From Rhodococcus sp. P1Y (GTDB lineage: Bacteria > Actinomycetota > Actinomycetes > Mycobacteriales > Mycobacteriaceae), in contig NZ_CP032762.1 of assembly GCF_003641205.1 (NCBI RefSeq), positions 5,352,001 through 5,416,000 on the forward strand: DNA of 64,000 nucleotides, written 5' to 3'. Below, piece by piece: positions 14,501 through 35,489 of this stretch; position 1 is the first letter of the stretch, and each line of letters begins with the position of its first letter. A model generated the notes under the pieces. It did no database searches and was not told the origin of the DNA. It saw only the letters and a program-made list of their open reading frames with translations. A program made the position numbers and the translations under genes.

Positions 14501-15090
14501 GCACCGCGACCAGGAATGACCTTGACGCTGTGCAGGTCCTTCTCCGTCGTCTTGTCGATCGAATGATCGAAGTAGACGCCGGGCGAACGGACGAGCTGCG
14601 AGACGACGACGCGCTCGGTTCCGTTGATGATGAAGGTGCCCTTGTCGGTCATCATGGGGAAATCGCCCATGAAGACCGTCTGGCTCTTGATTTCACCGGT
14701 GTTGTTATTGATGAACTCGGCGGTGACGAACAGCGGAGCCGCGTACGTCATGTCCTTGTCCTTGCACTCGTCCATCGAGGCCTTGACCTCGTCGAACCGT
14801 GGATCGGAGAAGGAGAGAGACATCGAGCCCGAGAAGTCCTCGATAGGAGAAAGCTCGGTCAGGATGTCCTCGAGACCGCCGGAGACACTGCTGTCTCCGC
14901 GCGCGGCGGCACGGTCGCGCCAACTCTGCGCACCTACCAGCCATTCGAAAGAGTCCGTCTGTACATCTAGGAGACCGGGTACCTCCAACGGCTCGCGAAT
15001 ATTCGCGAACGAAACCCTCCTCGGGGCTCCCGGTGTTCCGACAACTGCCTTGGTCTGGCTAGAGACTGCCAAGATGCGTCCTTCCAGCAC
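11584..15090 (-). CDS. rpoB: DNA-directed RNA polymerase subunit beta
   Basis: I place the start at the GTG at 15090, giving [15 protein letters not shown], which aligns with the known mycobacterial N terminus (MLEGCILADSRQSK); the frame is open a further 104 codons upstream but that part has no RpoB similarity. The product is 1168 residues. The rifampicin region reads [11 protein letters not shown] then [11 protein letters not shown], with the usual Asp, His and Ser at the main resistance positions, so a sensitive allele is predicted at this copy. Ends [18 protein letters not shown]. Catalytic core partner of RpoC; probably co-transcribed with it. Confidence 0.98.
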
Positions 15091-16312
15091 CTCACGCGGG
15101 CCGCTCGTGCAGTGCGACCGCCGCTGTATCTGCTTGCTTAATGTGGGGCGAATTCGCTGGTCACAACCAGACCGAATCCCCACTGCAATCTCTTCGAAGT
15201 AATCACTTCGCAGACACGGCAATCGAGAGGTGGACAGGAGGCAGCCAGCGCAACGTCCAAAGATACCCCAAATGTGCGCACGGCGCAACAGGGGCATCAA
15301 AAGTAGCACCCGAGATCGGAACCCGCGTCGCCTTCGAGTGCGGCGTGTCGCGGTCCGAGCAACCGGTTGTTCACGATTGCCACGGGGTGCGTACGAGGAC
15401 AAGAGTGACCCTTGCGCGCCCGTGCGTCAAGAGGGCTGAGTGCTTGTTTCGTACTCACCGCCGGTTTCGAGCACTTCGGGGCTGGAATGGTACCGGTCGG
15501 TCGGGTGTGTACAGGTTGAGGAAGGTGGGTGCGGGGGGGCTGGGATGAGCGAATGTCTCTTTCGGTCACCGTGGGGTATCGCTCGGCCGAGCGAACGACT
15601 CATTCGGTCACTCAGAGTGCGCGAATGTCTCATTCGGTCTCCCCCGAGCTGGCCGGCGAACCCCGACGCGCACGTTCCAGCCCAAGCACCAGTTGCAACA
15701 GACGCAGCCGCTGAAACCCGTGCGCCCACGACGCGAGGTGAACGAATGTCTCATTCGGTCACCGCGGGGTATCGCTGGACAGCGAACGACTCATTCGGTC
15801 ACTCAGAGTGCGCGAATGTCTCATTCGGTCACCCCGAGCTGACGCGTCGGCCCGCTCGGCTACACCCTCCCGCGGCTACACCCCACCCGCCGGCGTCGAC
15901 CGCCCCACTGCTCGAGCTTTGAAATACACTGCAACACAGTGCAATAGCTAGCCAAAGTCAGTAGCGATGCGAACTTTATTGCGGCACAACGAGACTTGAA
16001 CCACGTTCGAGAACCGACCAGAGCCATGAACCCAGCCGGATATCGTCAAACATATTGAAAACTGGACCTTGTCATCGCTCATTGAGACATCCGACCCGGC
16101 GTACTCTTGCCGATCTTTCCTATGGCCAATCCGCGCTGCGTCTGCTTATATTTCACTCAGCGCGGGTGGACCGGTAGGGGTAGAGCCGGCATCCGTGCAC
16201 GACGGCGTTTCGGGGGGAACACTATGACACAACTGTATTCAGCGTGCGCATACATCGACGCGCCCCTCGGAGCCCACATGGTCAGGGCCATCAATGCATC
16301 TGAGGGAGAGTC
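15091..16312. other. 1.2-kb gene-free region between rpoB and the PKS
   Basis: No convincing gene is seen. It must contain the divergent promoters of rpoB (minus) and of the PKS (plus). The middle (15546-15841) holds two triplets of a palindromic repeat; the part from about 15915 to 16100 is visibly AT-richer than its surroundings. Just before the PKS lie a GGGGGGAACACT ribosome-like site and an ATG at 16224 that opens a 56-codon frame ending inside the PKS gene in a different frame. I could not place a -35/-10 pair with confidence. Confidence 0.6.
15546..15841. repeat. Two imperfect ~100-bp direct repeats, each with three 'GAATG-TCT-CATTC' palindromes
   Basis: Copy one spans about 15546-15650 and copy two about 15742-15841. 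Each contains a unit, then GGGGTATCGCT, then GCGAACGACTCATTCGGTCA, then CTCAGAGTGCGCGAATGTCT leading into CATTCGGT and CCGAGCT. The palindromic core (GCGAATG, TCT, CATTCGG) is the same as in the 30-bp array at 47791-48060. Confidence 0.9.
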
Positions 16313-19300
16313 ATGGTCGAAATTGCGCTTGTCGGTATCGGATGCAGGTTTCCGGGGGGAGTCCACGACGGACAGAGCTTCTGGGAGTTCATGATCTCGA
16401 AGGGCGATGGAATCGTCGACATTCCCGCCGATCGTTGGAACGCCGACAGGTTCTACGACCCCGACCCCGACGCACCTGGACGCATGTACACCCGCAAGGG
16501 CGGGTTCCTGACGCAGTCGTTGTGGGACTTCGACCCCGAGTTCTTCGGCATCTCTCCACGTGAAGCAGCAGTGACCGATCCACAGCAGCGGTTGCTGCTC
16601 GAGGTGGCATGGGAGGCGCTCGACGACGCAGGCCACGCCGGACGTGTCTCCGGACAGCCCATCGGGGTGTACATCGGCGGTTTCACCAACGACTCTGCGG
16701 GACTTCGTGGTTCGCAGATGGCTCGTCCGTTCATCAACGCCCACAGCGCCACCAGCTCGTCGCACACGCTGCTGTCCAACCGAATCTCGTATGCGCTGGA
16801 CCTGGTTGGACCATCCATGACCATCGACACTGCGTGTTCGTCCTCGCTCGTCGCGGTGCACGAGGCTGTCCGCGCGCTCGACCGCGGCGAATGCGAGATG
16901 GCCCTGGTGGGCGGAGCGAACACCATGATCAGGCCGGAAACGTTCGTTTCGATGTGCAAGGGACGTTTCCTGGCGTTCGACGGTCGGTCCAAGTCATTCG
17001 ACGCCGCGGCCGACGGGTACGGGCGTGGTGAGGGCGCAGGTGTGGTGTTGCTTCGCCCGCTGGCCGATGCTCTGCGCGACGGCGATCGCATCTACTCCGT
17101 GATCAGAGGATCGGGTGTCAACCAGGACGGACGCACCATCGCGATTCCCGTCCCCAACCCGGTGTCCCAGCGTGTACTCGCCGAGCGGGTCTGCGCTGAA
17201 GCAGGCATCGAACCGAGTCAGGTCGGCTACGTCGAAGCTCACGGCACCGGCACCTCGGTGGGCGATCCACTCGAGATCGAGGCGCTCGGTAGCGCGTACG
17301 GCGCCACGACCGGACGTGAGATTCCGCTTGTCGTGGGATCGATCAAGGCGTCGATCGGGCACACCGAAGCAGCCGCAGGCATCGCAGGCCTCATCAAGAG
17401 CGCTCTGTCGATCCACCACCGCACCATCGTTCCGCAAGCATGGCTCGACACTCTCAATCCCGCAATCCCGTTCGACGACTTGGCTATTCGAATTCCCACC
17501 GAGGTCGAACCGTTCCCGGAGCACTACGATCGTCCGGTCGTCGCAATCAACGGATTCGGGTACGGCGGCACCAACGCGCACGTCGTGATGGACAACGCAC
17601 CGGAGTCGTCGACCCCTGCCTCGCGTCCAACCGGTCCCCGACTGTTTCCCCTCTCCGCCCGCACGGACGCCGCTCTACGTGCGGTAGCGGGATCGCTCGC
17701 GGACACCCTCGAACTCGTCGTGGACGGCTCGGACGACCAAGAGAACACCGTACGGAGCTTCACTGCGGCCGCATGGACTCGGCGCGCACATCACCCGGTA
17801 CGCACATCGCTGACATACACCGGCGCAGGCGACCTGCTGAACAAGCTGCGCGAGACGGCGTCGGGTGCGGGCAACACCGCCCATGTCGTGGACAATGCGG
17901 GGGCTGCCCCAGTGTTCGTGTTCAGCGGGATGGGACCGCAATGGTGGGCGATGGCCCGAGATCTTCTGCATGCAGGTGGTGAATTCGCCCGCGTGGCAGG
18001 CATCGTCGACGACGCATTCATCGAAATCGCGGGCTGGTCCATCATCGAAGAACTGTGCCGCGAGGAAGACCACTCCAAGGTAACGAACACCGAGGTCGCG
18101 CAACCTGCCAATTTTCTCGTACAGGTAGCGCTGGTGGCCGAGTTGCGAACTCTCGGAATCGAACCGGCCACGGTCGTCGGACACAGTGTGGGCGAAGTCA
18201 GTGCGGCATACGTCAGTGGCGCACTGAGCCTGCACGACGCCTTGCTCGTCAGCTGCCACCGCGCACGTCTGCAAGCGACGACCGCCGGGAGCGGATCGAT
18301 GCTCGCGGTTGGCCTGTCCGAAAGCGATGCTGTCGAATACCTGAACAACGCAGGCGAGGACATGGCCTCGCACGTCTCGGTCGCTGCGATCAACAGCCCG
18401 ACGGCCGTGACGGTTGCCGGTGACGCCGAACACTTGACCGCTCTCGCCGAAAAGTTGACCGCAGCTGGGATATTCGCGAAGAAGTTGCAAGTCGAGGTTC
18501 CGTATCACAGCCACCTGATGGACCCGATCCTCGGCGACGTGGCTACCGCACTTGCCTCGCTCGATCCTCGCGTCCCCGATCTGGCTCTCTTCTCGACCGT
18601 CACAGCGGATCAGGTGGTCGGCGCGGACTGGAATGGCGCCTACTGGTGTGACAACGTCCGCAAGCCTGTTCGTTTCGCGGATACGATCACCACGTTGATC
18701 GGCCGCGGACACCGTGTCTTTCTGGAGATCGGCCCACACCCGGTGTTGTCGGGAAACATCCGCGAGATCCTGATCCGAACAGGCGATCCAGGCACGTCGA
18801 TCGGCACGCTGGTACGCAAGCAGAGCGACGCAGAATCACTGGACACCATGCTCGCGGCGCTGTATGCAGCAGGTTCCTTCGACGGCCGAGTGTTCGCAGA
18901 CGCGGGCACCGCAGCGTCCCCACACTTCCCCCTTCCCGCGTACCCCTGGCAGAAGACGCGCGTGTGGAGCGAGGACGACGCCTCGGTCGCAGACCGATTC
19001 GGAACCGACACCGCGTTCCCGATGCTCGGTGATCGAACCGGATCGGCTGCGTCGGAGTGGCACGCCGAACTCTCGATTTCCCAACTGCCCTGGCTACACG
19101 ATCACGTGGTGGACGGCTTGGTGCTCCTCCCCGGTACGGCCTACCTCGATGCAGCACTGAGCGCTGCAGCCGCCCGTACGGGCCGCCGAGAAGTAGGACT
19201 CGAGCACGTGGAGTTCGTCGCTCCCCTCGTCGTCGACAAGCACGATGTCCCGATACTTCAGGTGGCGGTCGAGGACAGCACCAGGCGGTTCGTCATTCGT

Positions 19301-22300
19301 TCACGATCCGCATCGGACACGGTATGGACGGTCAACGCCACGGGGCGACTGGTCGAAGGGCATTTCGACGCGCCATTCGTAGCTCACGAAATCCCTTCCG
19401 GCACGAACGACATCACCGGTGACGTTCTGTATCCGCTCCTGGCCGCTGCCGGGCTGCAGTACGGGCCTGCCTTCCAGGGCATCGAAAAAGTGCAGATCGG
19501 CAAGGATTCGGTCGTCGCGACCATCGACACGACACGCCACTCCGAATCCGGCCACCTCGTACATCCCGCGGTACTCGACACGGCGCTGCAATGTGTGGCG
19601 ACGCTGTCGGCGGGCGCCTCCGGCGCGGTCGTGCCGTACTCCATGGGCACGGTTCGGCGGTACGGGCCCATTGCCGACCACGCGACGGTCGTCGTGACTC
19701 GAACGTCGATCGAACCCATGCGGGCCGACATCGCCGTCACCGACGACGAGGGTAAGGCAGCCGTGACCCTCAGTGGCGTCGAGTTCCGGCCCATCGCGCC
19801 GCCGCAATCGCTGCACACTCGTCTGTCGAAAGTCTTCTACGAACCGGTGTGGGAGTTGCGGGACAACCGGATCGTCGACGCGATAGGAACCGACGCCGCG
19901 CAGGATTTCGCGCTCGTCCTTCTACTCGGAGAACCCGACAGCTCCGCCCTGGCCCGCGCCGAGGCCATCGCGTCGTCGAGGCCATCGTCGCTGATCCTCG
20001 GTGCCGATTCGCTGACCGTTCACGAGATCGTCGCCGCGCTTCGGTCCGGCTTGGCCACCGACGGCATCGAGCGCGCGACGGTCGTTGCCGTCGCCGGTCG
20101 GTTCGACGACCCGGCAGCCGCTGTCGGGTCGCTGCTCGTCGCCGCACGCACCGTGCACGTCGCGATCTACGGCGACGAACTCGGACCCGCGGCAGCGCCG
20201 GGCAGTGTGTCCGCAGTGGTCGTGACCGAACGAGCATTCTGCATGCCGGGTGACGAGGCCGGCGCCGATCTCTGCCATGCGGGCCTCGTTGGCGCACGAC
20301 GGTCTCTGCGCAACGAGCAGTCGCCTGCGGCGTGGCGTTTCGTCGACGCCGAACCGTCGACCACTCTGTCGGAGATCACGACGGAGACCTTCGCCTTCGG
20401 CCCGTTCGCCGGCGATGTCGCCGACGAAATCGCATTCAGGCAAGGCTCGAGATGGGTGATGACCTTGCAACGCAATCTGGGTGATCACCTCGCAGTCAGG
20501 GAACAGCCGACAGCTCAGCGCGACGGCGAGCAGTCGTTCGCCATCGAGGTGCCGGCGACGAAACTACTGTCGGACTTGGCTTTCCGCGCACACAAGCGCC
20601 GAGCGCCCGGTCCAGGTGAAATCGAAGTGAAGATGCAAGCCGTCGGGCTCAACTACAAGGACCCGCTGAAGGTGATGGGTGTCCTCACCGACAAGGAACT
20701 TGCCGGAACGTATTTCGGAACAACCCTCGGACTCGAGGGCGCAGGCATCGTCACGCGGGTAGGACCGGGAGTCACCGAGGTCGTTCCCGGCGACCACATG
20801 GGAGTGTGCGCTCGGGACATGATGCGCCGGTATGTCACGGTGGGTATCGACGAGGGCGGCACCATGTCCATACCAGCGGATTGGGAGGCAGGGTGGTGCT
20901 CGTCGATCCTGCCCTTCCTGTGCGCTCAATACGGCCTGGTGCACCTAGCCAGGATTCAGCCGGGCGAGACAGTGCTCGTCCACGGAGCCGCAGGCGGTAT
21001 GGGGTTGGCCGCCGTGCAGGTGGCGCGACTGCTCGGTGCACGCATCATCGCAACTGCAGGAACCGAGGAGCGGCGGGCCGTCGCGCGGGACGCGGGCGCA
21101 CACGAGGTGCTGGCCTCCCGTTCGCTCAACTACTCCGAGGAGGTCATGGCGCTCACCGACGGCCGCGGAGTGGATGTGGTGTTCAACTCGTCGCCTGGTG
21201 AAATCATGGCTCAGAATCTGCACGTTGCAGGCGAATTCGCGCGCATCATCGAGATCGGCAAGGCCGACATCTACTTCGGCGGTGTCATGGACTTGAAGCC
21301 GTTCGACCGCAATCTGACGTTCTACGCAGTGGACATGGACCGGATGTTCCTGCACAAGCCCGCACTCGCGCGTCAGGTGACCCGGGAAGTGCTGGACAAG
21401 ATGTCGGCAGGCGAATACGAGCCCCTGCCCTACACCAGCTATGGGCTCGATCAGGTCGGCGAAGCGTTCGACTCGATCATTCGTTCCTCGCACACCGGCC
21501 GAGTAGTCCTCGACCTCACCGAGGACTCCCCCGTCGTTCGCCCTGAGATCCCCACCGTCGACATCGACCCGGCCGGGGTCTACCTCGTCACCGGCGGATT
21601 CGGTGCGTTCGGCACGGCAATCGCCCGGTGGCTGGTCGACGATGGTGCCCGTGCTCTCGTTCTCGTCGGACGAAGCGGTGCGACAACCGACCGTGCGAAG
21701 GAGGCGCTCGCCGAGTTCGCGTCGGCCGGGGTCGTCGTCACCGAGGAACTGCTCGACATCTCCGACTACGACGCCGTCCTGCAGATGGTGGAACGGGTGA
21801 AGGAAACGGGACGCCAACTAGCGGGCATCTTCCACACCGCAGGTCTCGTCGACAACTACGCGATCAACGACATCACCGACGAGTCTCTTCGAAACATCTT
21901 TCTGCCGAAGGTCACCGGTGCGGTCAACCTCGATCAGGCACTCGACGAGGCGGGCGTCGACCCGAGCATCTTCGTGATGTTCTCGTCGATGAGCAGCCTC
22001 ACGGGCGGTGCGCCTCAGGTGTCGTACTCCGCAGCCAATTCGGTGCTCGACGCCCTGGCCTGGACGCGCCGACAGCGCGGCAAGTCGGCGTTCACCGTCA
22101 GCTGGGGATCGATGTCGGGCGGCGGAATGGCCGAGGCGAAACAGGAGGTGGTGCGCTACCTCGACATGCTCGGATTCAAGAACATCGACATGGACGAGGC
22201 GACGTTGTTCCTGCGCGAATGTTTGACGCTGGACATCCCGCACGTGGCTCTCGTCGGAATCGACTGGGAGCAGTGGGGAATCGCCAACCCGGCGTCGGCA

Positions 22301-22786
22301 ACGATTCCGCGGTTCGCGGCACACATCGCCGCAGCGAGCACCGGCGGTTCCGGCATTTCGGCATTGCACGCCGAGATACTTGCGTTGCCAGAAGATCAGC
22401 GGGCCGACGTACTTACGTTCATTCTCGCCGAGCAGTTGGCTCTGGTGATGGGTATCGACGCCGAGGCGGTCGACGTCCAGACCCCGTTGCCGGAGCTCGG
22501 ACTGGATTCGCTGATGGCCGTGGAGTTCGCCGCACGCGTCGGCAAGACGGTCGGGCTCGAACTATCGGTACTCGAATTCGGCCGTGGCCACGGCCTTGCC
22601 GCCATCGGCGGAAAACTCGCCGCCGGGCTCACTGCCCGCGCCGACGGTGCCTCGGTCCCCGCAGTTCCCGAGCCTGCGCCCATGAACACCAACACAGAGA
22701 CGGAGACGGAGACCGAGATCATTCCGGCCCCGCCGGCAACCGCTGAACCTGCACTCGTCGGTTCCGAGCCAGGCCTGGTTCAGTGA
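16313..22786 (+). CDS. Type I polyketide synthase, single fully reducing module (KS-AT-DH-ER-KR-ACP)
   Basis: The 2157-residue protein has these domains in order. KS: DTACSSS with Cys175, His310 (EAHGTGT), His350 (IGHTEAAAG). AT: GHSVGEV with Ser625 and a VPYHSHLM motif, more like malonyl than methylmalonyl ATs, though not decisive. DH: HVVDGLVLLP with His931 and HPAVLDTALQ with Asp1089. ER: GLEGAG and NADPH loop GAAGGMG near 1558. KR: TGGFGAFG near 1761, catalytic Tyr1905 in YSAAN. ACP: LGLDSLMAVE with Ser2066. There is no loading module and no thioesterase. The set predicts an iteratively built saturated chain. A GAGGGAGAGTC site precedes the ATG. The stop overlaps the alpha-oxoamine synthase (GTGA), implying that this enzyme releases the chain. 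Product unknown. Confidence 0.95.
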   Translation: MVEIALVGIGCRFPGGVHDGQSFWEFMISKGDGIVDIPADRWNADRFYDPDPDAPGRMYTRKGGFLTQSLWDFDPEFFGISPREAAVTDPQQRLLLEVAWEALDDAGHAGRVSGQPIGVYIGGFTNDSAGLRGSQMARPFINAHSATSSSHTLLSNRISYALDLVGPSMTIDTACSSSLVAVHEAVRALDRGECEMALVGGANTMIRPETFVSMCKGRFLAFDGRSKSFDAAADGYGRGEGAGVVLLRPLADALRDGDRIYSVIRGSGVNQDGRTIAIPVPNPVSQRVLAERVCAEAGIEPSQVGYVEAHGTGTSVGDPLEIEALGSAYGATTGREIPLVVGSIKASIGHTEAAAGIAGLIKSALSIHHRTIVPQAWLDTLNPAIPFDDLAIRIPTEVEPFPEHYDRPVVAINGFGYGGTNAHVVMDNAPESSTPASRPTGPRLFPLSARTDAALRAVAGSLADTLELVVDGSDDQENTVRSFTAAAWTRRAHHPVRTSLTYTGAGDLLNKLRETASGAGNTAHVVDNAGAAPVFVFSGMGPQWWAMARDLLHAGGEFARVAGIVDDAFIEIAGWSIIEELCREEDHSKVTNTEVAQPANFLVQVALVAELRTLGIEPATVVGHSVGEVSAAYVSGALSLHDALLVSCHRARLQATTAGSGSMLAVGLSESDAVEYLNNAGEDMASHVSVAAINSPTAVTVAGDAEHLTALAEKLTAAGIFAKKLQVEVPYHSHLMDPILGDVATALASLDPRVPDLALFSTVTADQVVGADWNGAYWCDNVRKPVRFADTITTLIGRGHRVFLEIGPHPVLSGNIREILIRTGDPGTSIGTLVRKQSDAESLDTMLAALYAAGSFDGRVFADAGTAASPHFPLPAYPWQKTRVWSEDDASVADRFGTDTAFPMLGDRTGSAASEWHAELSISQLPWLHDHVVDGLVLLPGTAYLDAALSAAAARTGRREVGLEHVEFVAPLVVDKHDVPILQVAVEDSTRRFVIRSRSASDTVWTVNATGRLVEGHFDAPFVAHEIPSGTNDITGDVLYPLLAAAGLQYGPAFQGIEKVQIGKDSVVATIDTTRHSESGHLVHPAVLDTALQCVATLSAGASGAVVPYSMGTVRRYGPIADHATVVVTRTSIEPMRADIAVTDDEGKAAVTLSGVEFRPIAPPQSLHTRLSKVFYEPVWELRDNRIVDAIGTDAAQDFALVLLLGEPDSSALARAEAIASSRPSSLILGADSLTVHEIVAALRSGLATDGIERATVVAVAGRFDDPAAAVGSLLVAARTVHVAIYGDELGPAAAPGSVSAVVVTERAFCMPGDEAGADLCHAGLVGARRSLRNEQSPAAWRFVDAEPSTTLSEITTETFAFGPFAGDVADEIAFRQGSRWVMTLQRNLGDHLAVREQPTAQRDGEQSFAIEVPATKLLSDLAFRAHKRRAPGPGEIEVKMQAVGLNYKDPLKVMGVLTDKELAGTYFGTTLGLEGAGIVTRVGPGVTEVVPGDHMGVCARDMMRRYVTVGIDEGGTMSIPADWEAGWCSSILPFLCAQYGLVHLARIQPGETVLVHGAAGGMGLAAVQVARLLGARIIATAGTEERRAVARDAGAHEVLASRSLNYSEEVMALTDGRGVDVVFNSSPGEIMAQNLHVAGEFARIIEIGKADIYFGGVMDLKPFDRNLTFYAVDMDRMFLHKPALARQVTREVLDKMSAGEYEPLPYTSYGLDQVGEAFDSIIRSSHTGRVVLDLTEDSPVVRPEIPTVDIDPAGVYLVTGGFGAFGTAIARWLVDDGARALVLVGRSGATTDRAKEALAEFASAGVVVTEELLDISDYDAVLQMVERVKETGRQLAGIFHTAGLVDNYAINDITDESLRNIFLPKVTGAVNLDQALDEAGVDPSIFVMFSSMSSLTGGAPQVSYSAANSVLDALAWTRRQRGKSAFTVSWGSMSGGGMAEAKQEVVRYLDMLGFKNIDMDEATLFLRECLTLDIPHVALVGIDWEQWGIANPASATIPRFAAHIAAASTGGSGISALHAEILALPEDQRADVLTFILAEQLALVMGIDAEAVDVQTPLPELGLDSLMAVEFAARVGKTVGLELSVLEFGRGHGLAAIGGKLAAGLTARADGASVPAVPEPAPMNTNTETETETEIIPAPPATAEPALVGSEPGLVQ

Positions 22787-24141
22787 CCAGCGACGCGAGG
22801 GATATCGCGCGTCAGTTGCTTTCCCGCAGCGGCTATTCGACGGTCCACGTCGACGAACCAAGCCCTGGCTCGGCCGTTCCCAGAGCATCGACGCCCCCTG
22901 GCATCAGCTCCTCCACGCGTCCGCCACGGGGCGCGGGCCTGCTCGACCACCCCGACATCGTGGCCACGGTCGATCGCTTCGACGGCGTCGATGCGATGTT
23001 CGCCTCGCTCGGCATTCCCAATCCGCTCTATCTCGAGCACGAGGGAACGAGCGGCGCGACGATCCGGCAACTCGATCGAGACATGATCAACTTCGGTTGC
23101 TTCAACTACCTCGGTTTGAGCAACGACCTCCGGGTCGCGGAAGCGGCGAAGGCTGCAATCGACGAATACGGCACTTCGGTGTCGGCGAGCCGCATCGTCT
23201 CCGGCCAGATTCCGCTGTACGCGGAGTTCGAGTCGCGAATTGCCCAGGTCTACGACGTGGACGACGCGGTGATCACGACGAGCGGGTACCTCACCAATGC
23301 CGCAGCGGTCGGGTACCTGCTCGGACAGGGCGATCTGGCCGTCTGTGACGCCCTGGTGCACAGCAGCATCGTCTCCGGTACGGAGTGGGCGGGTTGTCGT
23401 CGAGTCACTTTCCGCCACAACGATCCTGGCGCACTCGAGGCGATACTGAAGATGTCGAGAGGCAGCTTCACCCGTGCGATGGTGATCCTGGAGAGCCACT
23501 ACAGCATGGACGGTGACGTCGCCTTGCTACCGCAGCTCGTCGAGGTGGCTCGCAAGTACGACTGCGCCGTGATGATCGACGAGGCTCATGCGTTCGGTGT
23601 CCTCGGCGAGCGTGGTCATGGCATCAGGGATCTCTACGGACTTCCCGGCGACGCAGTGGACATCTGGATGGGAACGATGTCCAAGGCGCTTGGCAGCGTC
23701 GGCGGATTTTTGGCCGGACGTCGAGAAGTGGTGAGAGCCTTCAAGTATTCCGCCCCCGGTCTCAGTATGTTCGCGACGGCGCCTGCTCCAGCGTCCATCG
23801 CCGCGGCGCTCGCCGGCCTCGACATCATCGACACGGAACCGGATCGAATTGCACGACTGCACAGCAACGCACAGCACGCATTCGCGACGGCACAGGCACT
23901 CGGACTGAAAACCGGTCTGGCCGAGGGCACACCGATTCTGCCGATCATCGTCGGAGACACTCAGAAGGCTGTACTCGCCAATGTCTCACTGTTGGAGGCG
24001 GGTGTGAACGTCAACGCGATCACGTATCCCTCGGTCCCTCTCGGGGAGGAACGGCTGCGGTTGTTCGTCTCGAGCGAGCACACGACTGAGCACATCGACA
24101 CGGCACTCACCGAGATTTCGGCGGTATTGGAGAAGTTCTGA
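22783..24141 (+). CDS. Alpha-oxoamine synthase (PLP-dependent, AONS/serine palmitoyltransferase-like)
   Basis: The 452-residue protein has about 85 extra N-terminal residues, then a fold-type I PLP domain of the AONS/KBL/SPT/CqsA family: NFGCFNYLGLSND, GTSVSASRIVSGQIPLY, DEAHAFGVLGERGHG (Asp266 and His269) and TMSKALGSVGG with the predicted PLP lysine Lys301. These enzymes join an amino acid to an acyl thioester with loss of CO2, giving an alpha-amino ketone. The GTG start overlaps the PKS stop by 4 bp, so the two are translationally coupled. Inference: it off-loads the PKS acyl chain, as the related enzymes of prodigiosin and sphingoid pathways do with ACP- or CoA-bound chains. Amino-acid choice cannot be read. 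Confidence 0.9.
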   Translation: MTSDARDIARQLLSRSGYSTVHVDEPSPGSAVPRASTPPGISSSTRPPRGAGLLDHPDIVATVDRFDGVDAMFASLGIPNPLYLEHEGTSGATIRQLDRDMINFGCFNYLGLSNDLRVAEAAKAAIDEYGTSVSASRIVSGQIPLYAEFESRIAQVYDVDDAVITTSGYLTNAAAVGYLLGQGDLAVCDALVHSSIVSGTEWAGCRRVTFRHNDPGALEAILKMSRGSFTRAMVILESHYSMDGDVALLPQLVEVARKYDCAVMIDEAHAFGVLGERGHGIRDLYGLPGDAVDIWMGTMSKALGSVGGFLAGRREVVRAFKYSAPGLSMFATAPAPASIAAALAGLDIIDTEPDRIARLHSNAQHAFATAQALGLKTGLAEGTPILPIIVGDTQKAVLANVSLLEAGVNVNAITYPSVPLGEERLRLFVSSEHTTEHIDTALTEISAVLEKF

Positions 24142-24145
24142 ACCA

Positions 24146-24179
24146 CGCCGTGCGGGGCCGGCCAGCGCCCCGCACGGCG
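24146..24179. terminator. Intrinsic hairpin between the convergent oxoamine synthase and KAS III genes
   Basis: Perfect 13-bp arms CGCCGTGCGGGGC and GCCCCGCACGGCG with an 8-base loop lie between the two stop codons. A U-run is absent, so efficiency is uncertain. Confidence 0.75.
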
Positions 24180-24189
24180 ATCGGTGACG

Positions 24190-25182
24190 TCAGTGGGCCA
24201 GGACCATTGCACCCCAGACGAATCCGGCGCCGATGGTGGCGATGACCGTCACCTCGCCCTTTCCCGCGCGACCGTCTCGCCGCAGCTGCGCCATCGCAGT
24301 GAAGATGCTTGCAGCACCGGTGTTTCCGAGTCGGTCGAGGGTGATGGGCGCCAGCGCCCGGTCGACTCCGAGCGTGTCCATCACATTGTGGACGATGTTG
24401 CGGTTGGCCTGATGGAACACGAAGTTGTCGATGTCCGTCAGTGCCAGATCGGCGGCGGCGACGGCGCGGCGGACCACGTCGGGCAGTAGCGACGTCGCGA
24501 GCTTCCATACGCGGGGCCCATCCATGTAGATGAACTGGTCGCCGCGCTCGATCGTGGACGCGTTCACCGGGTGTCGCGAACCGCCGCTTCGAATGCCGAC
24601 CGACATGTCCAGCTCGGCGGAGATCACCGAAGATCTGATGCCGCGTCCCGACGCCTCCTCGCCGGTGACGATGGCAGCACCGGCCGCGTCGCCGAAGAAG
24701 ATTCGCGTCGTTCGGTCCTCGGGGTCGGTCTGCCGCGAGAACACCTCGACGGCCACCACGAGTACGTGCCGATACCTGTCGCCGATCATGGACGACGCCA
24801 ATTCCAGTGCGAGCAATCCCCCGGAGCATGCTCCCTGGGTAAGGTCGATCGGTAGTGCACGCGTCGCACCCATGCGTTGGGCGACAGTCAAGGCCGTCGA
24901 CGGGAACGGTTGATCCGGATTCGCCGTCGCCAGGACGATGGCATCGATGTCCAGCGCGGCAAGACCGCTTCTGTCGAGAGCTGCCTGTGCTGCCTCGAGC
25001 GCGAGATCCGATGCTGCGAGGTGGTCTTGGAGAAAACGGCGCTCGGTGATTCCGGTCCGTTGCTCGATCCACGTCTGGTCGGTGTCCAGTGTCGAGCACA
25101 GCTCGGCATTGGTCACGACCCTGGACGGTACTGCGTCGACGAAATGGCGCGCGGTCACCTCGACCGGTTTCTGCACGTTCAC
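24190..25182 (-). CDS. 3-oxoacyl-ACP synthase III (KAS III / FabH-like)
   Basis: The 330-residue protein is a thiolase-fold KAS III with the complete triad: Cys119 in DLTQGACSGG, His257 in VFHQANRNI and Asn287 in RLGNTGAASIF. The WIEQRTGITERR and GDAAGAAI segments are standard. Start is GTG at 25182. Housekeeping FabH normally sits with fatty-acid genes; here it is embedded in a PKS/oxoamine island and divergent from the exporter, so a pathway role is likely: making or transferring a starter unit, or condensing an acyl group with the product. It converges on the oxoamine synthase gene. Confidence 0.9.
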   Translation of the reverse strand: MNVQKPVEVTARHFVDAVPSRVVTNAELCSTLDTDQTWIEQRTGITERRFLQDHLAASDLALEAAQAALDRSGLAALDIDAIVLATANPDQPFPSTALTVAQRMGATRALPIDLTQGACSGGLLALELASSMIGDRYRHVLVVAVEVFSRQTDPEDRTTRIFFGDAAGAAIVTGEEASGRGIRSSVISAELDMSVGIRSGGSRHPVNASTIERGDQFIYMDGPRVWKLATSLLPDVVRRAVAAADLALTDIDNFVFHQANRNIVHNVMDTLGVDRALAPITLDRLGNTGAASIFTAMAQLRRDGRAGKGEVTVIATIGAGFVWGAMVLAH

Positions 25183-25462
25183 GTATGTCCATCCATCCCG
25201 AGCAGTTGAAGTATTGACCAGATGGTCCGACCGAAAGGCTCTGCAGCAGAACAGCTTGCGAATGAGTACGCCGCGCGCGCAGTGTGGCGCTAGAGTAACC
25301 GAGTGCAGCGAACTTCTGCAGTCTCGACGGCGGAAAGTTATCGGTGTAGTGTCACCTCGAAACTCAGCTGACCAGCGGCAACAGGGGGCTCGCTCGAAGC
25401 GCTCAGCGTGGTGAATCCGGACGAACCCCGAAACAGTGTTCTTCCACCCGACAGGACGTCAC

Positions 25463-27661
25463 GTGCCAGACGCTTCGAACTCAGCAGCTCCGCCTGACCA
25501 CTCGGCTCGACAACCGCGAAACAGACTGGTGGAAACGATCATCGGTCGTGCGCGGTGGGTGCTCGCCACCTGCTTGGCCGTGGTTGTCGCAGCCGGGGTG
25601 TGGGGCGTCGGCGTCGTATCGGATCTGAGCCTCGGCGGCTATTCCGATCCGGGAAGCGAAGCCGCTCAGGTCGACGACATCGTCGACGCTCGGTTCGGCC
25701 GCACCGTCCCGGACGTCGCCATCGTCTACACCCCGCAGGACGGCAGATCAGCGGACGAGATCCGCGGCGACGTCGAAGCGAACCTGGCCGACATCGATCC
25801 GTCGCTACTGGTTCGCCCGCCGTTGACGTACTGGAACGTTCCCCCCGCGTTCGCGCAAGGGCTGAAGTCCTTCGACGGTCGCTCGGTGATCGCAGTGCTG
25901 ACGTTCACCGGTGACGAAGACGACCGCGTCAAGGCATACCGCGACATCAAGGACGAGCGCCTGCTGAACGGTATCGACGTTCAGTTCGGCGGCTTCTCGA
26001 CGATCGCCGATGCCTACAACACCGAGGCACGTGCGGATCTCGTTCGCGCCGAGACGATCACGTTCCCAATATTGATGGTGTTGCTGCTCGTCATCTTCGG
26101 CGGAGTCGTCGCAGCGGCGGTACCGCTGTGCATCGGAGGGCTCAGCATTCTGGCCTCGCTCGCAGTGATGCGGATTCTCACCTCGTTCACCGAGGTGAGC
26201 GTGTTCGCCACGAATATCGCGTCTCTGGTCAGTCTCGGAATGGCCGTGGACTACAGCTTGTTCATGGTGACTCGCTTCCGCGAGGAACTGCGTCACGGCG
26301 CCTCCACGCAGGACGCCGTTCGCGCCACTATGGCGACGGCAGGAAGAACCGTCGCGTTCTCGGGATTGTTGCTGGTGTGCGGCTTCGTCGGGATGCTCAT
26401 ATTCCCGCAGGCGATGGTCCGTTCTCTCGGGTTCGGCGGTATGGCCGCAGTCGGCGCTGCGGCGTTCGTCTCGCTCACGGCCCTTCCCGCTGCTCTCGCA
26501 TTGCTCGGCCGTCGCATCGATTCGCTGACCTGGCGCACAGGCGCGATCGACCGGGGCGACCAGCGGGCCGAACGGTTCTGGGGTTCGGTCGCGCTTCGAG
26601 TTATGCGCAGGCCGATCGTCGTCGCTGCATCCATTCTCGCGTTCCTCGCGTTGCTCAGCGCGCCGGTCTTCGGCGTCGCGCTCGGCGACCTCGACCACAG
26701 GGGACTACCGCAGGACGCCCCGGCCCGGGTCGCCACCGAAAAGTTGTTTTCGGATTTTCCACTCGCCAATTCCGGTGTCACCGTCATGGTTCGGTCGACA
26801 GGCGCGACACCCCCCGACGCACGAACGGTTCTCGCGGTCGCGAGCGAGATCGGCCGACTCGACGGCATCGCGGGCGCGGCGCCTGCAGGCGAATCGGACG
26901 ACTACGCGGTGGTGCGTGCAATCCTCAGTTCGCCCGATCGCACCGAAGGTGCCTTGGCGGCGGTGGATTCCATCCGAGACATCGTCCCGCCCGAGGGCAC
27001 GGTGATCGAGATCGGCGGCCCGACAGCGCTCAGCCAGGACGGCATCACGTCCATCTACGACACGATCCCGTGGATGTTCGCCATCATGATCGCCGCGACA
27101 TTCGTCGTCACCACCGCTGCTTTCCGATCGATTGTGCTGTCGGTGAAAGCAATTGCGATGGCAATGATCAGCCTGACCGCGACGTTCGGTGTTCTGACCT
27201 TGATCTTTCACGACGGACACGGGGCAGGGCTGCTCGGCATCACGCCCGGACCGCTGCAAGCCACGATGAGCATCCTGATCCTCGCAGTCGTGTTCGGACT
27301 CTCCACCGACTACGAGATATTTCTGTTGTCTCGCATCGTCGAAGCACACGATCGCGGCGCATCCACCGAAGAGGCAGTGCGTTTCGGCGCTGCTCGGACC
27401 GGCAGAGTCGTGACGGCTGCTGCGCTCCTCCTCATCACGGTGACAGCTGCGTTCTCGCTGTCGGAACTCGCGATGATGAGGCTGCTCGGAGTCGGGGTCA
27501 TCGTGGGTCTGATCATCGACGCGACTGTGGTACGGATGTTGCTCGTTCCCGCGCTCGTCAGGCTCATGGGTGAGGCGAACTGGTGGCTGCATCCGAAAGT
27601 TAACCTGCCACAAAACCACACACCATCGGAAGAGAGAGGCGAGAAAGAACATGCCGGTTGA
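25463..27661 (+). CDS. MMPL-family (RND) membrane exporter
   Basis: About 732 residues from the GTG at 25463, chosen because AGGACG lies five bases upstream; the frame also permits a GTG at 25436. The layout is one N-terminal transmembrane helix, a soluble porter domain, five helices, then the same again. Both halves carry the MMPL Asp-Tyr proton-relay pair: GMAVDYSLFMVTRFREEL and FGLSTDYEIFLLSRI. MmpL proteins of mycolata export lipids and lipid-like polyketides. Next to a PKS, this protein is the probable exporter of the product. It overlaps the GNAT gene by 11 bp. Confidence 0.92.
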   Translation: MPDASNSAAPPDHSARQPRNRLVETIIGRARWVLATCLAVVVAAGVWGVGVVSDLSLGGYSDPGSEAAQVDDIVDARFGRTVPDVAIVYTPQDGRSADEIRGDVEANLADIDPSLLVRPPLTYWNVPPAFAQGLKSFDGRSVIAVLTFTGDEDDRVKAYRDIKDERLLNGIDVQFGGFSTIADAYNTEARADLVRAETITFPILMVLLLVIFGGVVAAAVPLCIGGLSILASLAVMRILTSFTEVSVFATNIASLVSLGMAVDYSLFMVTRFREELRHGASTQDAVRATMATAGRTVAFSGLLLVCGFVGMLIFPQAMVRSLGFGGMAAVGAAAFVSLTALPAALALLGRRIDSLTWRTGAIDRGDQRAERFWGSVALRVMRRPIVVAASILAFLALLSAPVFGVALGDLDHRGLPQDAPARVATEKLFSDFPLANSGVTVMVRSTGATPPDARTVLAVASEIGRLDGIAGAAPAGESDDYAVVRAILSSPDRTEGALAAVDSIRDIVPPEGTVIEIGGPTALSQDGITSIYDTIPWMFAIMIAATFVVTTAAFRSIVLSVKAIAMAMISLTATFGVLTLIFHDGHGAGLLGITPGPLQATMSILILAVVFGLSTDYEIFLLSRIVEAHDRGASTEEAVRFGAARTGRVVTAAALLLITVTAAFSLSELAMMRLLGVGVIVGLIIDATVVRMLLVPALVRLMGEANWWLHPKVNLPQNHTPSEERGEKEHAG

Positions 27662-28274
27662 CATCAGAGCAGCAACCAAGTCCGACATCAGGGAGATGTC
27701 GGCGATGATGGCACGTGCTTTCCAATCGGACGACCCGGTGAGCGCCTATTTCTTCCCTCGGGACGATCGCAGGCCCACACTGCAGCGGCGGATGATGTCC
27801 GCGCTCATTCGGCACCGATATCTTCCGATCGGCGGCGCGGAACTCGCCGTGTTGGACGGCAAGATCGTCGGCGTGAGCCTGTGGCACCCGCACGACGCAC
27901 CCCAGCCGCCGTGGTGGCGTACCGCAATTGCGGGCCCACATCTGTTGTGGGCGATGCGACGTGGCGTACGGGCCGGAATTCAGATGGACAAGATGCTCGA
28001 CGAGGGCGCACCCGACGAGAACGCCGTGCTGTGGGTCTACCTGGGCGTCGAACCGACCCTCCACCGTTCCGGAGTCGGTGCAGCCCTGTCCAGGTCGATT
28101 TTCGATCGAGTCGATCGCGAGGAACGAACGACGTTCGGGATTTGCAAGGAGGGCAACATTCCCTTCTGGACGGCGATGGGGTTCGTCGAGGTCGGTACGG
28201 CAACGATCGGTCCACGGGGACCACTGGTTCATCGAATGAACCGTCCTCCGGCGGTGGTACCCACTGCGTCGTAG
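27651..28274 (+). CDS. GNAT-family N-acetyltransferase
   Basis: A 207-residue protein from the ATG at 27651 (MPVDIRAATKSDIREMSAMMA), with a purine-rich ribosome site (GAGAGAGGCGAGAAAG) and an 11-bp overlap with the MMPL gene. It has the GNAT layout: N-terminal helix, VLDGKIVGVSLW, the acetyl-CoA loop region VYLGVEPTLHRSGVGAAL and C-terminal FWTAMGFVEVGTATI. GNAT enzymes acylate amines. In this island the natural candidate substrate is the amine made by the oxoamine synthase or the aminotransferase-reductase, giving an N-acyl lipid, or it gives self-protection; both are inferences. Confidence 0.85.
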   Translation: MPVDIRAATKSDIREMSAMMARAFQSDDPVSAYFFPRDDRRPTLQRRMMSALIRHRYLPIGGAELAVLDGKIVGVSLWHPHDAPQPPWWRTAIAGPHLLWAMRRGVRAGIQMDKMLDEGAPDENAVLWVYLGVEPTLHRSGVGAALSRSIFDRVDREERTTFGICKEGNIPFWTAMGFVEVGTATIGPRGPLVHRMNRPPAVVPTAS

Positions 28275-28299
28275 CCGGGCAGCGCACCCGGCTACGACG
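28267..28299. terminator. Hairpin terminator after the GNAT gene
   Basis: 13-bp arms CGTCGTAGCCGGG and CCCGGCTACGACG separated by CAGCGCA. The left arm includes the last codons and stop of the GNAT gene; the right arm precedes the stop of the convergent fusion gene. Confidence 0.75.
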
Positions 28300-28309
28300 C
28301 TGGTGACCA

Positions 28310-30868
28310 TCAGTCCGACTCGCGCCACCGAGTTGCTTCGGCCAACTCGAATCCGTAGCGATCTGCAAGAACGCCGAGACGATGGACGCTCGCTGGGTCG
28401 AGCGCAGTGCCGATACTGCGCAGCTCGAACTCCCCGGACAGCGACAGCAACATCGTTTCGGCCATGCATGCATACGTCAGACCGGGTGCGATTCCGTAGT
28501 TCAGTCCGAAGTCCGATCCCGCGGGCAGTCGGACGATACCGCCGTCGAACACGGTGACATCGGGCCTGATTCGCTCGACATCGTGCGGAATGTTCGGCGG
28601 TTGCGCGACATCGCAGACGATGGCGTCAGCGGCGAGATCGGCCGCGTCGATCAACGAATGCGGTGCCGACGTCGCCGCGATGACGATGTCCGCCCGTGCC
28701 ACCCCGGCCTTGGGGTCGTCGAAGAACTCCAGATGACCGCTGGTGACCAGGTTGTCGACGGTTGCGTTCTCGGCCGCACCGGCGAAGCCACCGGATCCGC
28801 CCCTGGCCGCATCGACGAGCTCGCCCGCAGCGTCCCACAGCTTCGGAGCGATCTGGCCGCGTTCACCCGGTCGACCGACGAGCGCGATCGACCCGACGTC
28901 GGGAGCCAACGCCCGCGCGATGGTCCGGCCGATCGCTCCCGCAGCACCGAGGACAGCCACCCGTACGGTGGCCAGGTCGATTCCGCGTTCCGCGCACACC
29001 CGGTGCACTGCCCGAATACTCGCCGCGGCCGTGAACGAGTTACCCGTGGTGAGTACACCTGCCATCCTCCCCAGCGCCAGCCCGTTGCCTGTCACCACCG
29101 AGGAGTATCCACCCAGTCCGACGACGGCAGCGCCCCTCTCGAACGCCAAGTTCGCGGCGCCGGCAACGGCTGCCACGGCCGCTGCCGGCGGAAGCGTCAA
29201 AAGGCCTTTGGAGGTGAACGGCAGTCCTATCAGCGTTCCGTGCGCGGCACTGTCCTGCTCGGTGATGATTCGTCCGCTACCGATGACGAATGGCGACGGG
29301 TTGAGCTCGGAGGTCGCCGACGCGAACCTTCCGAGGAGGTCGCCGCGTTCGGGGTGGGAGAACTCGGCCAACGACGTGTCGAATGCTGCAAAGAAGTCCA
29401 GATCTAGCGGATGAGCGATGAAGCCGAACTTGCCGTCGCCTGCCTCTTCCCGAACGAACGGGAGTCGCTTTCCCACAATGGACTCCGCTGTCGGCTCCGG
29501 CTTGGGCGGTCGTCCGACGAGGTGCCCGATAAGCCCACCCAGATCACCCTCGGACGCAAAGGCCAAGGCTCGATCCAGCGCCGCGATCATTCGGCTGCAC
29601 TCGGATTCGGTCACCGTCAACGGCGGCTCGATCCGGAGAACACGTGCGCCGAACAGCGTCGGAGCTACGCGAATACCCTCCACCTGCGACAGGTAGGACG
29701 AGACCATGACCGCGAGGTTCTGCTGGTCGGCGATCGATCCGAGGATCGCCTGCCGTCCAACGAAGTTGATGTCGTCGGTGAGCTCGAGTCCGAGCAGCAG
29801 CCCGCGCCCTCGGACGTCGGTGACGACGGCAGGGTACTTCGCAGCGAGCCTGCGCAACTCGGCCTCGACGATGCTGCCGATGTCTCGTGCGCGGGCCACC
29901 AGGGCGCCGCCATCGGCGGTGAGCTGGTCGAGCACAGCGATTCCGACTCGCGCGGTCAACGCGTTACCGGCGAAGGTGGACGTGTGTCGAAGCGCAAAGC
30001 TCTCCCCCATCAGCTCGGGTTTGCACAACACTGCACCGCTCGGCAGAACTCCACCTCCGAGCGCCTTGGCCAACGCCAGAATATCCGGCACCACCCCGTC
30101 CGCGTCGCACGCGAACATTGTTCCGGTGCGGCCCAATCCAGTCTGAACCTCGTCCAACGCCATCAGCACCCCGTGCTCGGTGCAGATTTCGCGGACCCGA
30201 GCGAGATAGCCCTCCGGCGGGGTCACAACGCCGCCTTCGCCTTGGATCGGTTCCACAACGAACACCGCAAACTCCCCAGGAGCGTCGACGAACGCCCGCT
30301 CCAGTGCGTCGCTGTCACCGAACGCTACCGAGGCGAATCCTGGTGCCGGGGCACCGAACCCAGTCTGGTATTTGCTGTTGCCTGTCGCAGACAAGGCGCC
30401 GAGTGTCTTACCGTGGAAGCTGTTTTCCGTACTCAGAACGCCGAGTCGCCCCGTCGCGGACCTGGCGATCTTGATGGCGACTTCGATCGCCTCAGCGCCG
30501 CTGTTGACGAACGTCACCCGCCCGAGCCCTTGCGGGGCGACGGCAACCAACCTCACAGCCAGCTCGCCGGCCGGAAACAAGACCGAGGGCTGGACAAAGA
30601 CGGCCTCGCCGCCGGCGCGAACCGCGTCCATCGCTCGCCAGACGCTGTCGGGGTTGTGCCCGAAAGGAAGTGCGCCGTACGCCCCTGCGAAGTCGAGGTG
30701 GACTCGTCCGGTGGCATCGTACAACTCGGTACCACGACCCGATACGTACTCGACTCCGAGGTCGACCGCGTCGAGCAGCCTGACCAATTCGGGGTTGACA
30801 GCCGTTGCGTAACCCTCGCGGCCGATGGAGATCTCGGTAGAAACTCGTCCGATGGATATGTCGGTCAT
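28310..30868 (-). CDS. Fusion of class III aminotransferase and AAR-like acyl-ACP reductase
   Basis: This 852-residue protein has two parts. Residues about 20-445 are a class III PLP aminotransferase: GAEAIEVAIKIAR, ALDEVQTGLGRTG (Asp239) and LALAKALGGG with the PLP lysine Lys268. Residues about 479-845 resemble the cyanobacterial aldehyde-forming acyl-ACP reductase (AAR): KFGFIAHPLDL, GLGGYSS, TTGNSFTAA, the NAD(P)H loop GAAGAIG (641-647), a DGGIVRLP segment and YACMAETMLL, where Cys801 matches the AAR catalytic cysteine. Predicted role: reduce an acyl-ACP or acyl-CoA to an aldehyde and transaminate it to a primary amine in one polypeptide. TamH of tambjamine synthesis combines reductase and transaminase activities similarly. 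It is convergent with the GNAT gene. Start is ATG at 30868. Confidence 0.88.
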   Translation of the reverse strand: MTDISIGRVSTEISIGREGYATAVNPELVRLLDAVDLGVEYVSGRGTELYDATGRVHLDFAGAYGALPFGHNPDSVWRAMDAVRAGGEAVFVQPSVLFPAGELAVRLVAVAPQGLGRVTFVNSGAEAIEVAIKIARSATGRLGVLSTENSFHGKTLGALSATGNSKYQTGFGAPAPGFASVAFGDSDALERAFVDAPGEFAVFVVEPIQGEGGVVTPPEGYLARVREICTEHGVLMALDEVQTGLGRTGTMFACDADGVVPDILALAKALGGGVLPSGAVLCKPELMGESFALRHTSTFAGNALTARVGIAVLDQLTADGGALVARARDIGSIVEAELRRLAAKYPAVVTDVRGRGLLLGLELTDDINFVGRQAILGSIADQQNLAVMVSSYLSQVEGIRVAPTLFGARVLRIEPPLTVTESECSRMIAALDRALAFASEGDLGGLIGHLVGRPPKPEPTAESIVGKRLPFVREEAGDGKFGFIAHPLDLDFFAAFDTSLAEFSHPERGDLLGRFASATSELNPSPFVIGSGRIITEQDSAAHGTLIGLPFTSKGLLTLPPAAAVAAVAGAANLAFERGAAVVGLGGYSSVVTGNGLALGRMAGVLTTGNSFTAAASIRAVHRVCAERGIDLATVRVAVLGAAGAIGRTIARALAPDVGSIALVGRPGERGQIAPKLWDAAGELVDAARGGSGGFAGAAENATVDNLVTSGHLEFFDDPKAGVARADIVIAATSAPHSLIDAADLAADAIVCDVAQPPNIPHDVERIRPDVTVFDGGIVRLPAGSDFGLNYGIAPGLTYACMAETMLLSLSGEFELRSIGTALDPASVHRLGVLADRYGFELAEATRWRESD

Positions 30869-34191: not shown

Positions 34192-35489
34192 AGCCCACCT
34201 CCGAGTTGCTCGATCAGATCGTTCAGTGGATCGAACGGTGTCAACGGCGCACCGGTCTCACCCTCTTCGGGCTCGGCACCGGGTGCGACGGGTACTCCCG
34301 GCGGAGGCGTCGGGTTGGGAATGATCGGCGGAAGCGGCAGCAATGAGATCGTCGGCCACCCCGGACGAGGTCCGTTTCCGTTGTAATACGGATTGGATGG
34401 ATCGACCAACGGAAGTTGGTCACCGAACTTCGGCGGAATGTAGACCGGGTCGCCCTCGCCGACTCCGAAGTTGCGCAGAGCAGTGCCGATGGACAGGTCC
34501 AGTGACAGGTACAGGTTGGCCGAGTTGCCCTGCGTGATCTCCTCGACGCCGTCGGGGAACGGCAGGGTCGGAATCAGCGGCAACGTGGTGACGATGTCGT
34601 CGCCCGATGCGGCAAGTGCTTGCAACGTCGGGCGCAACGCACGGAGGTCGGCGATCAGGTTGTCCTTGGACTGGTTGATCACATCGGTGCCGACGGTGCC
34701 CAGACGGTCGAGTTGTCCCAGCATCGCGGTCAGCTGCGGACGTTGTTGTTCCAGAACTTCCGTTGCGATCGGAAGGTCCTGCAACACACGATCGATCTTT
34801 TCCGTTTGCCCACTGACCTGAGTGGTCAGTACATCGAGACCGTCGAGTGCTCGCGTGATGTCGTCTCGCTGCTGTTCTAGCCCACCGATGAGCGTGTTCG
34901 CTTCCTCCAGGAGACTCCGCGTCGTACCTTCGCGCCCGGCGAATGCCGCATTGAGTTCCTTCACGATCGGCGCGAGTTGCCCAACCCCGCCGCCGTTGAG
35001 AACGAGCGACAGCGCACCGAGGACCTGTTCGATATTGGTCGTGACCCTCGTACGGTCCAGCGGAATCGTGTCGCCGTCACGTAGCTTCTGTGGATCGGCA
35101 TCGCCCTCGGGCACGGTCAACTGGACGAACTTCTCACCAAGGATCGAGGTCTGCTCCACAGCCGCTGTGGCGTTGGCAGGAAGGTCGATCGAATTGTTCA
35201 CGATCACACCGACATTCGCCGTCCACTCACCGTCCGCGACGCTGATCGAATCGACTCGGCCGACCTCGACGCCGTCGACCTTGACAGTCGACTGCGGTAC
35301 CAGGTCGAGCACGTCCTGGAATTGGATGGTGAGCCGGATGGGGTCACTTCCCACGTCGGCGCCGCCGGGCAGCGGAATGCCGTACACCCCTTGCGAACAC
35401 GCACTGGCCGACAGGACCAACACGGTTGCGCCGACCACAGCGGTCAGCGGCCGCTTACCCGCAATCCAAGTGTTCATCGACCTACTCAC
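34188..35489 (-). CDS. mceE: Mce family lipoprotein E (LprK-like)
   Basis: I start at the GTG at 35489, which overlaps the mceD stop (GTGA). The first 30 residues form a lipoprotein signal ([20 protein letters not shown]; the lipobox is atypical, with Ala rather than Leu at -3). The MCE domain follows ([27 protein letters not shown]), then the helical region and a proline-rich C-terminal tail ([19 protein letters not shown]). The lipid-anchored fifth subunit is standard for mce operons. The frame is open well upstream but there overlaps mceD. Confidence 0.9.

Follow-up and report, generated by a model that had tools for sequence, protein, structure and literature searches.

A PKS-oxoamine synthase gene island of Rhodococcus sp. 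P1Y as a candidate actinobacterial version of the Pseudomonas sphinganine pathway

Organization of the locus

The DNA analyzed here, referred to as the window, is a 64,000-nucleotide stretch (positions 5,352,001-5,416,000 of the 5.87 Mb contig NZ_CP032762.1) of chromosomal DNA of Rhodococcus/Rhodococcoides, obtained from Rhodococcus sp. P1Y. A first-pass annotation, made from the letters of the sequence, had named six genes of a candidate biosynthetic system, and Pfam, motifs, and alignments confirmed that all six are present between rpoB and the mce genes and had been correctly identified. The features, in window coordinates, are the following:

11584..15402, minus strand: rpoB, a housekeeping gene forming the left boundary (family scan)
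16313..22786, plus strand: single-module, fully reducing type I polyketide synthase (PKS) of 2157 aa without thioesterase (Pfam domains, motifs, and a layout shared by Rhodococcoides, Nocardia, and Pseudomonas loci)
22783..24141, plus strand: PLP-dependent alpha-oxoamine synthase (AOS) of 452 aa with an N-terminal extension of about 80 residues (Pfam, NCBIfam, motifs, tree)
24190..25182, minus strand: KAS III (FabH-type), an optional part (family scans, C/H/N motifs)
25436..27661, plus strand: MMPL-family lipid exporter of 741 aa, MmpL3-related (Pfam, NCBIfam)
27651..28274, plus strand: GNAT-family N-acyltransferase (weak Pfam match, 5-sequence profile against the PDB)
28310..30868, minus strand: TamH-type transaminase-thioester reductase fusion of 852 aa, a neighbor with a probably separate function (Pfam, alignment, motifs)
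32944..38876, minus strand: mce operon genes forming the right boundary (family scan)

The arrangement is more than chance, since further genomes of the genus have orthologous clusters between rpoB and an mce operon. Elsewhere in the window, a tRNA scan located four minus-strand tRNA genes, for Trp, Met, Thr, and Tyr, between 50855 and 52787. Wherever no paper is cited, the motifs in the island genes are read by their usual catalytic meaning in these families.

Pfam placed the PKS domains in the order KS-AT-DH-ER-KR-ACP, and the same scan gave no thioesterase match in the protein. The KS carries DTACSSS, HGTGT, and a second histidine in ASIGHTEAAAG; the AT carries GHSVG, the DH HVVDGLVLLP, the ER HGAAGGMG, the KR GGFGAFG and YSAAN, and the ACP GLDSL. 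A further AT motif reads VPYHS in the window as opposed to YAFHS in the Pseudomonas PKSs, and the extender unit could differ on that account; the motif was discarded as a guide to the extender, as it is not diagnostic. The AOS gene starts within the PKS gene, overlapping its stop by 4 bases (GTGA). Its MSKAL motif aligns with the same motif in serine palmitoyltransferase (SPT), and its two best solved relatives are SPTs. The host encodes a second AOS (L228, G000:C1:2959626-2960750) that scored 373 and 352 bits on SPT models, higher than the window AOS and below the cut-off, so the organism might have a second candidate SPT.

The KAS III retains its C, H, and N motifs. The MMPL and GNAT genes overlap by 11 bases, with ATG 27651 rather than GTG 27570 as the likely GNAT start. 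The MMPL protein shares family membership and Asp-Tyr pairs, among them those at 272 and 625, with the trehalose monomycolate exporter MmpL3, pairs that presumably have a role in MmpL3; it differs from that exporter in its length of 741 aa and in reaching 510.1 bits on the NCBIfam MmpL3 equivalog, whose cut-off is 1400. Two other MMPL copies of the host scored 945 and 1001 bits on this model, likewise below the cut-off. The GNAT assignment combines a weak Pfam match below the cut-off (E 0.032) with a 5-sequence profile that matched GNATs in the PDB, namely 2qec (E 2.4e-5) and puromycin N-acetyltransferase 7k09 (E 2.2e-4); NCBIfam assigned the protein to no family, and its predicted structure, with a mean pLDDT of 52.5, was set aside.

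The fusion consists of an N-terminal class III aminotransferase and a C-terminal domain resembling acyl-ACP reductase, the latter aligning with both PigE (4ppm) and AAR (6jzq), and bears the hallmarks of the TamH type: the PLP lysine in LAKALGGG, GxxGxxG as GAAGAIG, and the catalytic cysteine in TYACMAE. TamH of Pseudoalteromonas tunicata has the same order, a class III transaminase followed by an AAR-like thioester reductase with GxxGxxG and a cysteine (PMC9594044). The surroundings differ from those described there: the window fusion adjoins the mce operon, and the ORFs scanned between 2582 and 38876 include no TamA-like adenylation-ACP partner. The PigE fusion belongs to the same family with its two domains in reverse order. 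Thirteen relatives of the fusion at 66-83% identity come from Rhodococcus/Rhodococcoides, including R. fascians. More distant TamH-type fusions, at 41-45% identity, were found mostly in MAGs of Syntrophomonadaceae and other Bacillota (L040-L054, L057-L063). Two Nocardia genomes, those of Nocardia sp. CDC159 and N. puris (L039:2066-12508, L074:1-12511), each carry a 59%-identical fusion immediately behind, and in the same orientation as, a different type I PKS; there it may possibly be a reductive-amination release step.

Distribution within the genus

Thirty-seven genomes of the genus were compared. The fusion occurs in 29 of them and in none of the sample's 64 other relatives at E 1e-100. Of the three proteins sought across whole genomes it is the commonest in the genus, for which reason its job is likely independent. 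An AOS orthologue (71% identity or more) occurs in 11 genomes; 13 had passed the search threshold, of which G019 and G034, holding AOS of only 35-37%, were left out, and G011 has both kinds. A KAS III orthologue (69% or more) was retained in seven of the 14 genomes that passed, the remaining seven, at 33-39%, being left out. Our locus table covers 30 loci, the 29 with a fusion plus that of G010, and GNAT and MMPL were sought at the locus only. It contains KS in 10, AOS in 11, GNAT in 11, MMPL in 17, and KAS III in seven; the KS count of 10 against 11 AOS goes with the G018 contig, which ends inside the PKS.

The unit that travels together is PKS-AOS-GNAT. GNAT was found at 11 of 11 AOS loci, thus in exactly the AOS genomes. 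MMPL was also found at all 11, and at six more loci that keep MMPL and fusion and have no PKS-AOS (G008, G014, G009, G025, G017, G007). Given these six loci, and given that no MMPL was detected in the seven Nocardia-type stretches described below, the exporter may also serve something else. Thirteen other loci hold the fusion and no PKS, AOS, GNAT, MMPL, or KAS III, although in G013 and G033 the contig ends just past the fusion and the MMPL status is not judgeable there; at several loci, the fusion directly adjoins rpoB. Conversely, G010 retains PKS, AOS, KAS III, MMPL, and GNAT and has no fusion. Overall, 19 of the 26 AOS-less genomes have the fusion, as do 10 of the 11 AOS-bearing ones, there at the same locus, and the two are not associated over the 37 genomes (Fisher p = 0.39, kinship ignored). 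With KAS III in seven of 11 AOS clusters, we rejected it as a core gene. Of the co-occurrence in related genomes that the first-pass annotation had named as a check, PKS, AOS, and GNAT show it, as does MMPL at the AOS loci of the genus; the fusion probably has a separate function, and KAS III is optional. In G006, the DNA between GNAT and fusion holds ORFs (L108:2281-4556) that, judged by eye, we take to be an IS21-type istA/istB pair, as well as a TetR-like ORF at 5031-5687; extra tailoring genes at this place were rejected in view of the resemblance to istA/istB.

On a tree of mce and RpoB proteins from 29 genomes, the fewest changes needed were four for the AOS, one for the fusion, six for MMPL, and three for KAS III. 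This tree was built by a quick method, with G028 omitted (mce not found) and four rows 25% filled. The AOS and MMPL trees, which are small and partly unresolved, recover broadly the same groups, a pattern that fits inheritance with repeated loss, but put G000 nearer to G006/G018 than the mce and RpoB tree does.

Relatives outside the genus and likeness to the sga system

AOS matches came from 17 of the 397 genomes of an order-wide sample (E 1e-70) and from nine of the 394 of a class-wide one (E 1e-95). Five genomes of the genus coded g22 (L174-L178) have GNAT-PKS-AOS with the full PKS layout, and Nocardia sp. CDC159 and N. puris have PKS-AOS, with AOS identities of 52 and 51%, and GNAT found in CDC159 only. 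These seven loci are called Nocardia-type here, and GNAT-PKS-AOS is present in six of them. In both CDC159 and N. puris, the PKS-AOS pair and the fusion occupy separate places. The SDR beside the N. puris PKS has the 3-ketodihydrosphingosine reductase TSC10 as its second-best solved relative (E 1.2e-28), with many SDRs nearly as good. One Nocardia-type locus has a PAP2_3 family gene after the AOS (L176:11059-11841); proteins of this family can be head-group transferases or phosphatases. L179, from a g53 genome, has PKS-AOS with an alcohol dehydrogenase adjoining the latter, and an MMPL of 30% identity close by. Nine further matches are AOS domains within open frames of 1055-2497 codons, accompanied by KS and AT in seven (L180, L182-L187) and by KS alone in two (L181, L188).

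The closest characterized system is that of P. fluorescens MYb115, which produces C24-C28 sphinganines and, most likely, phosphoglycerol sphingolipids by means of the iterative one-module PKS SgaA and the AOS SgaB (PMC12134224). In vitro, SgaB acts as an SPT selective for L-serine; the C24-C28 sphinganines are lost when sgaA or sgaB is deleted, and the SDR SgaC is the proposed 3-keto reductase (PMC12134224). The first-pass annotation knew of no described pathway with this gene set; the PKS-AOS core nevertheless turns out to be of the characterized SgaAB kind (PMC12134224). That study counted 6,101 homologous clusters, mostly in Burkholderia, and cites gene predictions in several Actinobacteria; Rhodococcus, Nocardia, and mycobacteria do not appear in its main text (PMC12134224). 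Ceramide synthesis in Streptomyces aurantiacus is mentioned elsewhere (PMC11743623), and the Actinobacteria hints we found in these two papers do not concern Rhodococcus or Nocardia. Likewise, the main text of a survey of Rhodococcus clusters (PMC5550956) contains no oxoamine, oxononanoate, MMPL, or sphing- terms. In the literature searched, we found no described pathway that joins PKS-AOS to this GNAT and an MMPL.

Our Pseudomonas sample gave an AOS match at E 1e-62 in 15 of 298 genomes, and these loci were tied to sga by gene order and layout. The order in L211 (PKS, AOS, PhyH-like, capsule-type, GNAT, sulfatase/LtaS-like, SDR) fits the numbering of SgaA (RS19805), SgaB (RS19800), and SgaC (RS19775) (PMC12134224). 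KS-AT-DH-ER-KR plus AOS were found in 14 of the 15 loci, with the ACP not detected in L213; in L225, no ER was detected and the AOS is at 36%. One Pseudomonas PKS analyzed by Pfam has the same one-module layout as the window enzyme, KS-AT-DH-ER-KR-ACP. An SDR was found in at least 10 of the 15 stretches, as it was beside the N. puris PKS, and a GNAT in at least 11 of the 15. In several of these loci (L211:4639-6744; L214, L215, L216, L218-L224), the GNAT and a sulfatase-family gene lie between AOS and SDR; the LtaS match of the latter is weak, at 33 bits and far below the cut-off, and the gene is a candidate source of the phosphoglycerol head group that MYb115 is reported to have. The words GNAT and acyltransferase are absent from the main text on MYb115 (PMC12134224).

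The likeness to SgaAB thus lies in a one-module reducing PKS without thioesterase followed by a separate, adjacent AOS, with the PKS domains in the order of the Pseudomonas relatives. The window differs in having no SgaC-like SDR, in having an MMPL and an optional KAS III, in the AT motif, and in a dissimilar GNAT, which shows no pairwise similarity to the Pseudomonas GNAT (E 1.1). The PhyH-like, capsule-type, GNAT, and LtaS-like proteins of L211 had no match in the window. In a quick tree of 57 AOS rows, with several long branches and two long-branch warnings, the window AOS groups with those of Rhodococcoides, the Nocardia-type loci, and L179 (19 rows, SH-aLRT 99), away from the SPT row 3a2b and from the second AOS of the host. 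The Pseudomonas AOS likewise lie away from these two, but on a separate, tentative branch with PKS-fused AOS (support 84).

Proposed pathway and alternative readings

The gene identities, conserved motifs, conserved unit, and relatives are observed features of these genomes, and on their basis we propose, with a probability of about 0.62, that the island at 16313-28274 is an actinobacterial version of the PKS plus AOS sphinganine pathway, with acylation by GNAT and export by MMPL. It would represent a known pathway core in a new setting, the mycolic-acid actinobacteria; the iteration, the choice of amino acid and acyl group, the export, and all products are predicted from the gene families. 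The one-module PKS would act repeatedly to build a long, saturated acyl chain tethered to its own ACP. Release would fall to the coupled AOS, through decarboxylative condensation of the chain with an amino acid (L-serine being most likely, alanine or glycine possible), and would yield a 3-keto-sphinganine-like alpha-amino ketone. GNAT would acylate the amine, giving a ceramide-like or N-acetyl product, and MMPL would move the lipid towards the mycolic-acid outer membrane, with the optional KAS III perhaps supplying the starter. The logic of PKS plus AOS agrees with the earlier suggestion of a sphingoid-like amino lipid, for which the island also has a lipid exporter and possibly an N-acyltransferase.

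The main gap in the proposed pathway is the absent ketoreductase: queried with two SDRs from Pseudomonas and one from N. puris, tblastn detected no SgaC-like reductase across the 64 kb of the window or in any of ten Rhodococcoides stretches (L164-L173). An N-acylated keto form made through GNAT would be chemically sensible, since alpha-amino ketones in the free form are prone to self-condensation. In the Spt-bCerS-CerR ceramide pathway of Caulobacter, which resembles the proposed one in its AOS/SPT condensation and acyltransferase and differs from it in that the window chain would come from a dedicated PKS, acylation is proposed to precede reduction (PMC11087976); such an order would fit the absence of a reductase in the window. 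A bolder and rather doubtful extension is a reductase-free sphingolipid branch of mycolic-acid bacteria, in which Rhodococcoides and Nocardia would make ceramide-like lipids, N-acylated keto-sphingoids with PKS-built chains, and a dedicated MMPL of Rhodococcoides would load them into the mycolic-acid outer membrane.

The amino acid is the step on which another outcome is a possible, if less expected, one. With alanine or glycine, the AOS would give 1-deoxy-sphingoid or amino-ketone lipids, or self-condensed pyrazines. On the NCBIfam SPT equivalogs, the enzyme scored 285, 270, and 205 bits against cut-offs of 640, 500, and 670, failing all three, and its best score was to the BioF model (325 bits); these values, together with identities of 41-47% to the AOS of 14 Pseudomonas loci, which leave room for an altered pocket, indicate that the amino acid may differ, and the lack of an SgaC-like reductase in the stretches searched also speaks for this reading. 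However, the two Pseudomonas AOS scanned behave alike, with 326 and 331 bits on BioF and 291 and 293 bits on the SPT-CFB model, where the window AOS has 285, so that they too fall below the SPT cut-offs even though the characterized member is serine-selective (PMC12134224). As NCBIfam does not separate the Pseudomonas AOS either, it was rejected as a guide to the amino acid, and the SPT identity of the two best solved relatives also argues against alanine or glycine.

A single six-gene pathway on the lines of the first-pass annotation, in which the fusion would release the PKS chain as an alkyl amine, a second nitrogen would come from the AOS, and N-acylation and export would follow, appears improbable. 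The fusion does share the locus with the AOS in all but one of the AOS genomes, MMPL and fusion stay together without PKS-AOS at six loci, and the placement of the L039 and L074 fusions behind another PKS suggests that such fusions may serve PKSs. Against it stand the 19 AOS-less genomes with a fusion and its absence from G010, the unequal numbers of changes of fusion and AOS on the mce and RpoB tree, the separation of PKS-AOS and fusion in Nocardia sp. CDC159 and N. puris, and the four of 11 clusters without KAS III. Judging by what SPT and TamH are known to do, moreover, AOS and fusion would both be release steps acting on the C1 thioester and would compete rather than share one chain, which speaks against nitrogen being installed twice. 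A different acyl-ACP is the probable substrate of the fusion, which would convert it to a fatty amine; the island pathway does not require this enzyme.

It is very improbable that the cluster makes a lipid like the methyl-branched acids of mycobacterial Pks2 with the AOS as a side enzyme, for although the PKS matches the Pks2 model over its full length (1091 bits, short of the cut-off of 2400), the AOS overlaps the PKS and accompanies it in the Rhodococcoides, Nocardia-type, L179, and Pseudomonas loci, and no acyl-AMP ligase or PapA-type gene is present among the window ORFs scanned.

Significance

If the reading of the island as a PKS plus AOS sphinganine-type pathway is true, polyketide-derived sphingolipids would reach the mycolic-acid bacteria, with a built-in exporter candidate in Rhodococcoides; according to the authors of the Caulobacter study, flippases or lipid transporters for bacterial sphingolipids have not yet been identified (PMC11087976). 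The TamH-type fatty-amine enzyme, carried by 29 of the 37 genomes, is set apart from the island pathway as a question of its own. For the pathway itself, PKS-AOS-GNAT provides a clear genetic handle, given that 11 of the 37 genomes searched naturally have the AOS and 26 lack it.
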